Of a DNA stretch of 64,000 bases, positions 34,859 to 40,822 are shown one piece after another; positions within the stretch are counted from its first letter, which is position 1; each line of letters opens with the position of its first letter. A model generated the notes under the pieces. The model did not search any database, was not told the origin of the DNA, and saw nothing but the letters and a program-made list of their open reading frames with translations. The stretch is from Bradyrhizobium sp. PSBB068 (lineage in GTDB: Bacteria; Pseudomonadota; Alphaproteobacteria; Rhizobiales; Xanthobacteraceae), in the NCBI GenBank assembly GCA_016839165.1, contig CP069300.1, positions 2,852,001 through 2,916,000 of the forward strand, given 5' to 3'. The position numbers and the translations under genes are program-made.

Positions 34859-34944
34859 TATCGATTTGTCCATGCCCAAAGAAGAATGTGGGCGCAACGC
34901 TGGCCGCGGTTGCGGGGGCGGGCGCCGTCGCGTATCTGCTTGCC

Positions 34945-36543
34945 ATGACAGCCCAGCACACAGACCGTGAATCGTCGGCGCCCTCCGTGGCCTCGGCGCA
35001 TGACAAGATTCTGATTGTCGATTTCGGCAGTCAGGTGACGCAACTGATCGCCCGCCGCGTCCGCGAGATGGGCGTCTATTCCGAGATCGTGCCGTTCCAG
35101 AAGGCGGAGGCCGCCTTCAACGAGATGAAGCCGAAGGCGGTGATCCTCTCCGGCGGCCCCGAGTCCGTTCACGAGACCGGCTCGCCGCGCGCCCCGCAGT
35201 TGATCTTCGAATCCGGCGTTCCCGTGCTCGGCATCTGCTACGGCCAGATGACCTTGGCGGCCCAGCTCGGCGGCGAGGTCGAGGGCGGGCATCACCGCGA
35301 ATTCGGCCGCGCCGATGTCGAGGTGAAGACCGACAGCCAGCTGTTCGACGGCATCTGGAACCACGGCGAGAAGCACCAGGTGTGGATGAGCCATGGCGAC
35401 CGCATCACCAAAATGCCGCCCGGCTTTTCCGTCGCCGGCACCTCGCCGAACGCGCCGTTCGCGATCATCCAGGACGAGAAGCGGAAGTATTACGGCCTGA
35501 TGTTCCACCCCGAGGTGGTGCACACGCCCGACGGCGCAAAACTCCTGCGCAACTTCGTCCGCAAGGTCGCGGGGCTCTCCGGCGACTGGACCATGCGCGC
35601 CTTCCGCGAGGAAGCGATCGAGAAGATCCGCGCCCAGGTGGGCACCGGCAAGGTGATCTGCGGCCTGTCCGGCGGCGTCGATTCCGCGGTCGCGGCGGTC
35701 CTGATCCACGAGGCGATCGGTGATCAGCTCACCTGCGTGTTCGTCGATCACGGCCTGCTGCGTCTCGACGAGGCCAAGACCGTCGTCGACCTGTTCCGCA
35801 ACCACTACAACATCCCGCTGGTCCATGTGGACGCGTCGAAAGAGTTTCTCGGCGAGCTCGCAGGGGTCACCGACCCCGAGGTGAAGCGCAAGACCATCGG
35901 GCGCCTGTTCATCGACGTGTTCGAGGCGGAAGCCAAGAAGATTGGCGGTGCCGCGTTCCTGGCGCAGGGCACGCTCTATCCTGATGTGATCGAGAGCGTC
36001 TCCTTCACCGGTGGCCCCTCGGTGACCATCAAGTCGCACCACAATGTCGGCGGCCTTCCTGATCGCATGAACATGAAGCTGGTCGAGCCCTTGCGCGAAT
36101 TGTTCAAGGACGAGGTGCGCGTGCTCGGCCGCGAGCTCGGCCTGCCCGAAGTCTTCGTCGGCCGCCACCCGTTCCCCGGTCCTGGCCTCGCCATCCGCTG
36201 TCCCGGCGACATCACCAGAGAGAAGCTCGACATCCTGCGCAACGCCGACGCCGTCTATATCGACCAGATCCGCAAGCACGGCCTCTATGACGCGATCTGG
36301 CAGGCCTTCGCCGTGCTGCTGCCGGTCAAGACCGTCGGCGTCATGGGCGACGGCCGCACCTACGAATACGTCGTCGGCCTGCGCGCCGTCACCTCGACCG
36401 ACGGCATGACCGCCGACTTCTACCAGTTCGACATGAAGTTTCTGGCCGAGACCGCGACGCGCATCATCAACGAGGTGAAGGGCGTGAACCGGGTGGTGTA
36501 CGACGTGACGTCGAAGCCGCCGGGGACGATTGAGTGGGAGTGA
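34945..36543 (+). CDS. guaA: GMP synthase (glutamine-hydrolysing)
   Basis: A 532-residue bifunctional enzyme making GMP from XMP, glutamine and ATP. The class I amidotransferase domain carries the nucleophile in [12 protein letters not shown] and the His-Glu pair in [12 protein letters not shown]; the ATP-pyrophosphatase domain begins [13 protein letters not shown]; the C-terminal dimerisation domain ends in KPPGTIEWE, the universal family terminus. ATG at 34945 is chosen; the open frame upstream adds 19 non-family residues. Its 3' end is a known integration site for genomic islands in other bacteria, and a foreign-looking cassette begins 61 bases later. Confidence 0.96.
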
Positions 36544-36604
36544 AGTTACGAAGAACGAAAAGCCGAAAGATACCTTGAATTAGCTGTGGGCCGGTTGCTC
36601 TCGC

Positions 36605-38257
36605 ATGAGTGAAGTAAAGCTTGATCATTTTCGGCGGGCCGTCGCTGATATATCTGCGCATGGCGACAACGATACTCTTCCGTTCGATGTAGACAATTGG
36701 TTCATCGCCCAGTGTCCGGAAGATTTGGCCAACCTGGCGTTCGAGTGGAGCAACCGGGTAGCCAAAGTAGACAAGAAAACGGCCAAGCGCCTTATCGAAG
36801 AATTGCCGGTCTTCTCAGAACGGTTGCTGGTGCCGACTGGTTCGGCAGGCTTTCGGATTACTACTAAGATTCATCCCTTTTGGAACGTCTATTTTAATGG
36901 CCTGGGAATTGCCATTGCTGAGGCCTTGGAGCCCAAACGTAGCAGCCGCGTGCATTCCTATAGGTTCGTTCCCTCCGGCGACTCCTTGTTCAATCGCGAT
37001 TCATCGTGGCGTGCATTTCGACAAGCAACCATCGACGAATGCCCAGAAGCATCGAGTGGGGCCGTAGTCGTCCAAACCGACATATCGAGCTTCTATGAGC
37101 ATGTTTCGCATCATAGGCTTGAGAACTTGATCGATGACCTGTTCGGCCCGTCATCCAACCTGGCAGTTCAGATTGACAGGTTTCTGAGCAAGTTTGCAGC
37201 TGGCCGATCCTTTGGCTTACCTGTCGGCGGGCAATGCTCGCGAGTACTCGCTGAACTTCTGCTGACATCGATAGACAGTACCCTTACCGTCGAAGGAATA
37301 GCTTGGCGGCGATACGTTGACGATTTTGTGCTGATTACGGCCAATCAATCGGAGGCCTATCGTGCACTTTCTATCCTGTCGCACGCTCTTGCAGACTATG
37401 GCCTCACTCTCAATAGAACCAAAACCATTATTTTGACGGCGAAGCACTATGTCGATTACGTTGAGACGCAGCTCGGAACCTCCGACGATCAAGCGAACAG
37501 GCTGGCTGAGATTGATCTAAAGTTTGATCCTTACTCCGATACGCGAGATTCCGATTACGACGAACTGAGGGAGATCGTCGAGGGGTTGGATGTTCGGGCG
37601 CTGCTGGACAACGAGCTCCATAAAGCGCAGCCAGACACATTTCTGGTCACTCAAATCGGAAGAACTCTAACGTTACACGAGCCGAGTGCAGCGTTCCATC
37701 TCTGCAGGACACTGCTCTCTCCGGGTAATCTTCACTCATTTCGGGCCTCGTGGGCCACCATAATGAGAGGTGTCGCATCGATCTGCGCCGATTCTCGTTT
37801 TGTCGAGATTCATGGCGCGGTTGATCGCCTTCTGGACTCAGTTCCTACACACTCGCCACACTTGTTGAGTGCGGAAGTTAGTTGCCTTCATTATTTGCGG
37901 GCACTGCGCTTTCGACGGACGGACGAGCGTGCAGCGTTCGTCCTCAAGATGCACGACTCCACGAAGTCAGAGACGGTGAAGCGCGGGTGTCTCGATTGCT
38001 GGCGCCTTTGGAAGGAGAGAACGATCTTCACAAGGGAACGAAACCGGTGGAACTCGTTAAGTACCGAGGAGCAGCGGATGCTTTGGTTCGCTGCAGCCCA
38101 GTTTGGCGACGAGGGATCTAAATTCCGTAGCCAAGTGAAGAAAAGTGTCCTTAACGGTTGGAGGCTGGGATTCGAGCGCGGTAGTGACCGTGAGCAAACG
38201 TTTGCTGTGCTTTATAGCAATTGGGCGGAAGGCGATCACCATGCGCCTGCCAATTAG
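36605..38257 (+). CDS. Reverse transcriptase of the UG/Abi-like (defence-associated) type
   Basis: A 550-residue RNA-directed DNA polymerase. RT motifs occur in order: VVVQTDISSFYEHV with catalytic D159, FGLPVGGQCSRVLAELLLTSID (residues 203-224), RRYVDDFVLIT with D239 and D240, and LTLNRTKTIIL near 267-277. About 100 residues precede the fingers motifs and about 260 follow the polymerase core. The tail is helical-looking, with no recognised domain. The LPxGxxxSRxLAE pattern and long tail resemble the bacterial unknown-group and abortive-infection RTs rather than group II intron RTs (no maturase or HNH domain) or retrons. Many A/T-ended codons contrast with the GC-rich neighbours, pointing to transfer. 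It overlaps the nuclease-like gene. Known relatives protect against phage; function here is inferred. Confidence 0.9.
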   Translation: MSEVKLDHFRRAVADISAHGDNDTLPFDVDNWFIAQCPEDLANLAFEWSNRVAKVDKKTAKRLIEELPVFSERLLVPTGSAGFRITTKIHPFWNVYFNGLGIAIAEALEPKRSSRVHSYRFVPSGDSLFNRDSSWRAFRQATIDECPEASSGAVVVQTDISSFYEHVSHHRLENLIDDLFGPSSNLAVQIDRFLSKFAAGRSFGLPVGGQCSRVLAELLLTSIDSTLTVEGIAWRRYVDDFVLITANQSEAYRALSILSHALADYGLTLNRTKTIILTAKHYVDYVETQLGTSDDQANRLAEIDLKFDPYSDTRDSDYDELREIVEGLDVRALLDNELHKAQPDTFLVTQIGRTLTLHEPSAAFHLCRTLLSPGNLHSFRASWATIMRGVASICADSRFVEIHGAVDRLLDSVPTHSPHLLSAEVSCLHYLRALRFRRTDERAAFVLKMHDSTKSETVKRGCLDCWRLWKERTIFTRERNRWNSLSTEEQRMLWFAAAQFGDEGSKFRSQVKKSVLNGWRLGFERGSDREQTFAVLYSNWAEGDHHAPAN

Positions 38258-39011
38258 AGATCCCAGGACAATTGCTCGCGACATCTCGGGTGTTTTCGAC
38301 GCTCTGTTCCCGCAGCTCGCGCAAGGGGTAGTCGCCAGTTTCAATCGCGGGGCTATTCCTATCGACGGATGCGAACCCGTTTCTCAAGAGTTGGTAGAAG
38401 CCACAAGTGTCCAACGGGCTATGCTATTTGAAACAGCTGTCGCAGCTGCCGAGCAACTGATCGAAGGAGGGTCGGCGGTCGATTGGGATTTGTGCCTAGG
38501 TACAGCGGTGGCGCGCCAGAAAGCACATTTTGACGCCAAGCTTCCGCAATCGCTGACCAGTGTCGACAAGGAGGTGTCGCTCCATGTGGCGAGGAATTTG
38601 ATTGCGGCCTTTCGGCAACTTCGAGCTTCAAGTGGCACCGAGGCTCTTGTGCGTGGCCCGCGTATTCCGGGTTTTCAATGGGTGGCCTCTAGTGTGGGTG
38701 ACTTTTCCATTGGAAGAGCGCTAATTGAGGTGAAGTGCACGAACAAGCACTTCATATCTTCCGACTACCGCCAGATCCTAATGTACTGGCTTCTCAGCTA
38801 TTGTGCGGCGCTTGAGACTGGTGCCACGGAATGGGCGGACGGGGTCTTGGTGAATCCTCGTCTGAATCGAGTGGTTCGGTTCTCATTTAATGGTCTTATT
38901 CCAATCGTCGGAGCGGGAAAATCAAAAGTCGAACTAGTAGAATTGTTTTCGACCATGTTGGGAACCCGTGTCCCCCTTACGCCTCGCGGGCATGCTGACG
39001 GGCCAGGCTAA
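38241..39011 (+). CDS. Putative PD-(D/E)XK nuclease, RecB/Cas4-like, partner of the reverse transcriptase
   Basis: A 256-residue protein. From residue 141 it reads RIPGFQWVASSVGDFSIG, then ALIEVKCTNKH, then DYRQILMYWLLSY: D154, E163-V-K165 and Q178xxxY182 fit motifs II, III and the QxxxY motif of the RecB/Cas4 nuclease family. The first 130 residues are helical and unrecognised. The ATG at 38241 lies inside the last codons of the reverse transcriptase (17-base overlap), with GGAAGG 9 bases upstream, so translation is coupled. Codon use is AT-shifted like the partner gene. Assignment rests on motif spacing only; a structure comparison has not been done. Confidence 0.65.
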   Translation: MRLPIRDPRTIARDISGVFDALFPQLAQGVVASFNRGAIPIDGCEPVSQELVEATSVQRAMLFETAVAAAEQLIEGGSAVDWDLCLGTAVARQKAHFDAKLPQSLTSVDKEVSLHVARNLIAAFRQLRASSGTEALVRGPRIPGFQWVASSVGDFSIGRALIEVKCTNKHFISSDYRQILMYWLLSYCAALETGATEWADGVLVNPRLNRVVRFSFNGLIPIVGAGKSKVELVELFSTMLGTRVPLTPRGHADGPG

Positions 39012-39013
39012 CA

Positions 39014-39103
39014 AGCGTAGCCCGGATGAGCGTAGCGATATCCGGGGCTCTTTCACTCGCGTCGTGGTCTCCCGCATATCGCTGCGCTCATGCGAGCTAC
39101 ACG
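39014..39103. repeat. REP-type palindrome, GTAGCCCGGATGAGCG family
   Basis: Left arm GTAGCCCGGATGAGCGTAGC with GATATCCGGG, right arm CCCGCATATCGCTGCGCTCA with TGCGAGCTAC. It lies right after the cassette and before the TetR gene's stop, at the right cassette boundary. Confidence 0.7.
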
Positions 39104-39108
39104 GCTAG

Positions 39109-39672
39109 CTACGCCGGCAGCAGCCCGGCGGCGCGATAGTTGTCGATCAAGGAGTCGTAGAGCGAAATATCGGAGCGGCTTCTGGCCATCAGCTGCGCGC
39201 CGGCGACGGCAGCGAAGATGGCGCGGGCGCGCTGTTCGCTCTTTCTTGCACTGACGAGGCGCGCCGCCACCAGCAGCTTGCTCAGCCACGCCACGTTGAC
39301 GTCGGCAAAGGTCTGGACCTCCTGCTTCACCGCGTCCGGCAGGTCGTCGACCTCCGCGGACATGAAGCTGCACAAGCACATGCGATTGTCGTTCTCGAGC
39401 GCCTTGCGAAACACCTCGGGATATCGGCGCAGGCAGCGGACCGGATCCGCGGTTTCCGCCAGCATCGCCTCGAGTTGGGCGGCGGTGTCCTCCCAGTAGC
39501 GCCGCGCGACGGCTGCGCCGAGATCGGCCTTGCTCGGGAAATGGTGATAGATGCTGGCGGCCTTGATCCCGACCTCGGCGGCGAGATCGCGGAAATTCAA
39601 GCCGCCATAGCCGCGCGCCTGCGCAGTTCGCTTTGCTGCCGCCAAGATGGCCTCCCGAGCGCTTGAACCCAC
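39109..39672 (-). CDS. TetR-family transcriptional regulator
   Basis: A 187-residue TetR repressor. The HTH is AREAILAAAKRTAQARGYGG, LNFRDLAAEVGIKAASIYHH, FPSKADL (residues 5-50). The ligand domain holds a cysteine pair in MCLCSFM. Divergent from a glutathione S-transferase gene, with two copies of one operator-like motif between them; autoregulation and repression of the transferase are likely. The inducer is probably an electrophile, but this is inference. Confidence 0.9.
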   Translation of the reverse strand: MGSSAREAILAAAKRTAQARGYGGLNFRDLAAEVGIKAASIYHHFPSKADLGAAVARRYWEDTAAQLEAMLAETADPVRCLRRYPEVFRKALENDNRMCLCSFMSAEVDDLPDAVKQEVQTFADVNVAWLSKLLVAARLVSARKSEQRARAIFAAVAGAQLMARSRSDISLYDSLIDNYRAAGLLPA

Positions 39673-39696: not shown

Positions 39697-39714
39697 CTAC
39701 CAAGTGACAGGTAG
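39697..39714. promoter_or_regulatory. TetR operator-like site 1
   Basis: CTACCAAGTGACAGGTAG, 5-bp inverted arms CTACC/GGTAG around 8 bases, 25 bases upstream of the TetR start. One base differs from site 2. Confidence 0.65.
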
Positions 39715-39751: not shown

Positions 39752-39769
39752 CTACCAAGTGGCAGGTAG
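39752..39769. promoter_or_regulatory. TetR operator-like site 2
   Basis: CTACCAAGTGGCAGGTAG, same orientation as site 1, 55 bp centre to centre, ending 14 bases before the glutathione S-transferase start, where a bound repressor would block the promoter or ribosome access. Confidence 0.65.
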
Positions 39770-40720: not shown

Positions 40721-40822
40721 GTCATTCCGGGCTCGCCGAAGGCGAGAGCCCGGAATCCATCGGGCCGCATAACTCGTGGATCAATGGATTCCGGGCTCTC
40801 GCTTCGCGAGCCCCGGAATGAC
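40721..40822. repeat. REP-type palindrome, GTCATTCCGGG family
   Basis: Outer arms GTCATTCCGGGCTCGCCGAA and CGCTTCGCGAGCCCCGGAAT+GAC with CCCGGAATCCATCGGGCCGC and CAATGGATTCCGGGCTCT inside. Around it, 40621-41145 holds no gene that I can support. Confidence 0.85.

Follow-up and report, generated by a model that had tools for sequence, protein, structure and literature searches.

What is the two-gene cassette that lies at positions 36,605 to 39,011 of a 64,000-nucleotide stretch of Bradyrhizobium sp. PSBB068 (contig CP069300.1, positions 2,852,001 to 2,916,000; hereafter the window), in a genome of 7.67 Mb, and is it a new kind of antiphage defence? One gene encodes a reverse transcriptase (RT) and the other a nuclease-like protein, and a first-pass annotation had proposed the two as a candidate undescribed defence cassette. 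Judged from its sequence, the pair is very probably DRT type 8 (DRT8), a UG7-class defence RT with a dedicated PD-(D/E)XK nuclease in a two-enzyme anatomy. The system is already known, and the window pair is an ordinary member of it. The features of the pair are as follows.

36605..38257, + strand: Drt8 (UG7) reverse transcriptase, 550 aa (PADLOC PDLC03783, RVT_1, AlphaFold2 model)
37079..37081, + strand: codon of catalytic Asp159 (QTDISSFY), invariant in 76 aligned RTs and 16 diverse RTs
37313..37324, + strand: YVDD motif, residues 237-240, with D239 and D240 invariant in the 76 aligned and 16 diverse RTs
38241..39011, + strand: RTasPDDEXK nuclease partner, 256 aa (PADLOC PDLC03797)
38241..38257, + strand: 17-base overlap of the RT and nuclease genes (gene coordinates)
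38700..38786, + strand: nuclease active-site stretch D154, E163-V-K165, R177-Q178-xxx-Y182; seven residues, including G153, invariant in 16 of 16 nucleases

The identification is carried by two full-length family matches. The RT matches the PADLOC Drt8 model PDLC03783 with 501 bits over model positions 3-490 of 493 (E 1.3e-150), the second-best PADLOC class being UG22 at 115 bits, and the partner matches PDLC03797 (RTasPDDEXK, the PADLOC model for RT-associated PD-(D/E)XK nucleases) with 227.8 bits over positions 2-222 of 226 (E 3.3e-68). With E values this low over the full length of both models, chance resemblance is far out of reach. The active-site residues of both proteins, as previously annotated, were found in place: D159 and the YVDD of residues 237-240 in the 550-aa RT, and D154, E163-V-K165, Q178 and Y182 in the 256-aa nuclease read from ATG 38241. 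The program-made open reading frame (ORF) of the nuclease begins at GTG 38145 (288 aa), but relatives align from about ATG 38241. The 17-base overlap of the genes, also as annotated, suggests that they may be co-transcribed and translationally coupled; a promoter and terminator scan gave sites no more numerous than in shuffles. Compared through the PADLOC models and the active-site residues, the window pair showed no difference of kind from DRT8.

More general profiles add little to this assignment. Pfam recognises RVT_1 in the window RT (55.7 bits, cut-off 29.6) and a COX4 match below its cut-off (12 bits). In NCBIfam no model scored above cut-off for the RT and no Drt8 model turned up; the Drt4, Drt3a, group II and retron models were all far under their cut-offs. 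A retron origin (best NCBIfam retron model 38.6 bits, cut-off 235) and a group II intron origin with a maturase-type RT (TIGR04416, 66.2 bits, cut-off 300) were thus rejected. The nuclease had no match in Pfam or NCBIfam, its second PADLOC match (PDC-S61) was weak at 17 bits, and a PDB sequence comparison returned nothing significant (a single row, E 0.86).

What could favour a new RT plus RecB-like nuclease system is that neither Pfam nor NCBIfam matched the nuclease and that no NCBIfam model exceeded its cut-off for the RT. Against this, both genes match PADLOC models over their full length and DRT8 is described as bearing a PD-(D/E)XK domain in the part consulted of a 2025 paper (PMC12596737), so that we regard such novelty as extremely improbable and the undescribed system as ruled out. 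The first-pass annotation was therefore correct in pairing a defence-type RT with a PD-(D/E)XK protein carrying a RecB/Cas4-like motif, and mistaken in calling the pair undescribed. It had named an RT of a characterised type with this same partner as the outcome that would speak against it, and this is what was found, since RT and partner both match existing DRT8 models.

Conservation of the two genes agrees with this picture. RTs matching the Drt8 model at E<=1e-60 occurred in 11 of 265 genomes of the genus, 7 of 297 sampled from the order, 6 of 385 from the class and 4 of 349 from the phylum; these samples overlap, and the distinct genomes number 24. The nuclease adjoined the RT in 13 of the 24 and was not found in the other 11, which hold more distant RTs, as searched with the PADLOC model (E<=1e-10, whole genomes) in the genus and order genomes and, for the seven remaining genomes, with a purpose-built profile in ORFs of at least 90 aa from fetched stretches of 13-14 kb. 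The phylogenetic tree places the window RT among ten rows that form a clade with support 100/99, each of them nuclease-paired. Six further paired rows make up another clade (100/99). Of the seven nuclease-less rows, six group together (100/99), and the branch of the seventh, L012, lies nearby and is very long. Support for the deep order of this tree is weak (80/74), its long branches are flagged, and 5 of 12 nuclease-less loci are absent from it. The separation of paired from nuclease-less RTs by profile score is partly by construction, because the profile was built from paired RTs. Conservation of the nuclease beside related RTs, which the first-pass annotation had proposed as a check, holds for all ten rows of the window's clade and for 13 of the 24 genomes.

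The two genes have also diverged in parallel. RT and nuclease distances correlate with r 0.973 over 16 pairs and with r 0.935 inside the window's clade of ten, and in each case none of 5000 permutations was as high. Eleven residues are invariant in all 16 nucleases (P140, G144, G153, D154, E163, K165, R177, Q178, Y182, N205 and R207), and D159, D239 and D240 are invariant throughout an alignment of the window RT with 75 homologues (59-81% identical) taken from the 120 listed. Among 33 plasmid records with an RT match, three cover 80% or more of the RT and all of these carry the nuclease, as does one further record with 54% RT coverage.

Damaged copies were seen as well. The RT gene is in pieces in 2 of the 13 paired genomes (G316 and G455), and G389, where the nuclease stands beside an RT stub, was left out of the 13. 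In the broken or shortened DRT8 copies at L048 (G316), L049 (G455), L047 (G389) and L005, the RT is split over two ORFs or reduced to a stub, or the nuclease reading frame contains a stop. It looks as if DRT8 were frequently lost.

How the pair might work is best approached from the fold of the RT, whose C-terminal part had been annotated as long and unassigned. The AlphaFold2 model of the window RT (predicted local distance difference test, pLDDT, 86.6) indicates otherwise: over 382-469 of 550 residues its predicted fold resembles those of DRT4 (UG15), DRT6, AbiA, Abi-P2 and AbiK, families counted only among the matches listed, and an RT domain followed by a long helical C-terminal part appears common to all of them. 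Sequence identity in these comparisons is only 11-16%, and on the window RT no Drt4 model exceeds 73 bits and Drt6 gives 82 bits, compared with 501 for Drt8. For the nuclease the likeness is at the level of motifs. The G-D, E-x-K and Q-xxx-Y motif of RecB/Cas4-type PD-(D/E)XK nucleases recurs in 16 of 16 DRT8 nucleases, the Q-xxx-Y element being one that we take to be characteristic of RecB and Cas4, whereas the window protein has no Pfam, NCBIfam or significant PDB match.

Antiphage activity of DRT8 is reported at family level in the portion consulted of a 2026 review (PMC13213688), and the type is present in Pseudomonas syringae, 14% of it prophage-encoded, according to an extract of a 2026 survey (PMC13182921). 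Its mechanism was not established or unresolved as of 2026 in the extracts of PMC13213688 and PMC13314766. The mechanism that we tentatively favour is DNA synthesis free of noncoding RNA (ncRNA), coupled to a nuclease effector. The RT would make DNA without a co-encoded ncRNA, by analogy with what is reported for DRT4; the nuclease would be held in complex with the RT as an effector; activation of the nuclease would come from the DNA product or from a phage trigger that acts on it; and the activated nuclease would then cut DNA, such that the infected cell stops phage production. DRT4 itself is listed as a single RT protein without a nuclease in the same portion of the review (PMC13213688). The first-pass annotation had suggested that DNA made by the RT activates the nuclease or is processed by it, and the present results are neutral on this suggestion.

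Another possible, if somewhat unlikely, arrangement makes the nuclease a quencher that trims the RT's DNA in uninfected cells, until a phage protein blocks the nuclease or shields the DNA end and toxic DNA accumulates. The predicted likeness of most of the window RT to DRT4 and DRT6 would fit this arrangement, as would the Q-xxx-Y motif, presumably of RecB/Cas4 type; under it, the RT alone would be expected to be toxic. It is improbable, on the other hand, that a dedicated ncRNA serves as the template of the RT, as it does in DRT2, DRT3 and DRT9, with the nuclease processing the complementary DNA. Those types need such RNAs in the excerpts consulted (PMC12596737; PMC13213688) and the polymerase residues are kept in the window RT, but only 61 bases upstream and 97 downstream separate the pair from the adjoining genes, and the fold over most of the RT is nearest to DRT6, DRT4 and the Abi enzymes, not to DRT2 or DRT9, among the matches listed. 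Furthermore, three scans, each a weak test, showed no RNA: Rfam gave no match at gathering level in the window, the flanks of the pair held no noncoding sequence conserved in relatives, and the top window of embedded synonymous constraint was reached by 382 of 1000 RT shuffles and by 745 of 1000 nuclease shuffles. An RNA encoded elsewhere is compatible with these results.

The nuclease-less RTs that match the Drt8 model, 12 loci in all (11 genomes and the plasmid locus L104), raise a separate question. In three of them (L036, L040 and L104) the gene directly upstream of the RT encodes a DUF87/HerA ATPase of one family, and in L039 the gene directly downstream encodes a different ATPase, of TraD/HerA type. 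The stretches in which such RTs adjoin a DUF87/HerA-type ATPase gene are:

L036, 4181-8055
L040, 5008-8861
L104, 1-3581
L039, 6398-9499

A profile search found no DUF87/HerA gene in the other eight loci. L035 has a HATPase-domain gene downstream of the RT, L037 has a convergent GmrSD-type gene, and neighbours in the remaining loci are known as ORFs only. In L104, a retron-type RT (RT-DUF3800 VII-A1) follows. The link between RT and DUF87/HerA is a loose one: relatives of the DUF87 protein stand without an annotated RT beside them in L111, L113 and L114, and L112, the closest DUF87 fragment (71% identical over 149 residues), has no RT nearby by tblastn. It is doubtful, though conceivable, that the Drt8 model lumps two systems, the nuclease-less RTs being a DRT type of their own that has gone unrecognised and that sometimes has a HerA partner.

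The window pair sits between a host gene and a convergent regulator, with these flanking features.

34888..36543, + strand: guaA (GMP synthase), the host gene that borders the pair on the left (in Pfam, GMP_synt_C at 148 bits and GATase at 138 bits)
36544..36604, + strand: 61-base spacer separating guaA from the RT gene (no noncoding conservation seen among the compared relatives)
39109..39672, - strand: TetR-family regulator, convergent, at the right edge (Pfam TetR_N 52.8 bits)

A QueC match in guaA (23 bits) was taken as chance. The codon ends of the pair are richer in A/T than both flanks, as the first-pass annotation had noted: the G+C content at third codon positions is 0.575 in the RT gene and 0.543 in the nuclease gene, against 0.727-0.912 in ten flanking genes, and the pair is thus foreign in base composition to its setting. 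Of the ten neighbouring genes tested in the window, none was recognised as a defence gene; a Pfam search of the ten flanking genes recognised no integrase. A search with the final 25 coding bases of guaA, allowing up to 3 mismatches, hit a single site in the window, and the cassette is thus not bordered by a duplicated guaA end.

Relatives give a broader view of this site. Among the 20 guaA flanks fetched, out of 113 genomes with a guaA match, the 3' side varies between species, the window's pair occurs in none, and an exact empty site, with guaA followed directly by the TetR gene, was found in 0 of 20. Five of these same-genus flanks (L081, L084, L085, L089 and L097) hold partial copies of the guaA 3' end, 25-191 bases long and about 1-9 kb downstream, those of 25-36 bases being weak. 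The copies fit a guaA end used as a site by mobile elements integrating there, and guaA is named together with integration sites and genomic islands in extracts from the literature. A broken DRT8 stands directly beside guaA in the Bradyrhizobium genome G455 and another near guaA in Bradyrhizobium G316, behind a gene with a Mrr_cat match (25.1 bits, cut-off 21). Elsewhere, the relative L100 adjoins an annotated integrase and L101 adjoins ABC-three-component genes.

A phage-borne copy was sought and rejected: at E 1e-5, none of 50,697 phage records matched. One relative emerged from viral contigs scanned with two peptide patterns, a scan that reaches only RTs holding either pattern. On the viral-collection contig L103 (4423-8398), a DRT8 pair follows two genes that are AbiEi/AbiEii-like by eye.

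A few further elements lie to the right of the pair. A repeat-family origin of 39016-39046 was discarded, as a zero-mismatch scan of the genome returned the pattern a single time. At 39697-39714 (CTACCAAGTGACAGGTAG) and 39752-39769 (CTACCAAGTGGCAGGTAG), between the TetR and GST genes, stand two 18-base copies that share 94% identity and are perhaps a candidate TetR operator. Positions 40742-40802, downstream of the GST gene, hold a perfect inverted repeat with arms of 19 bases and a spacer of 23.

As a discovery the pair carries little weight, since the system is named and its parts have models. It is useful as a compact, intact-looking example of DRT8, a type whose mechanism is not established in the extracts cited above, and its predicted structural likeness to DRT4 and DRT6 offers a testable first guess at that mechanism. 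The nuclease-less RTs provide a natural comparison for the DRT8 pair; if they are a type of their own, setting them against the pair described here would reveal the contribution of the nuclease.
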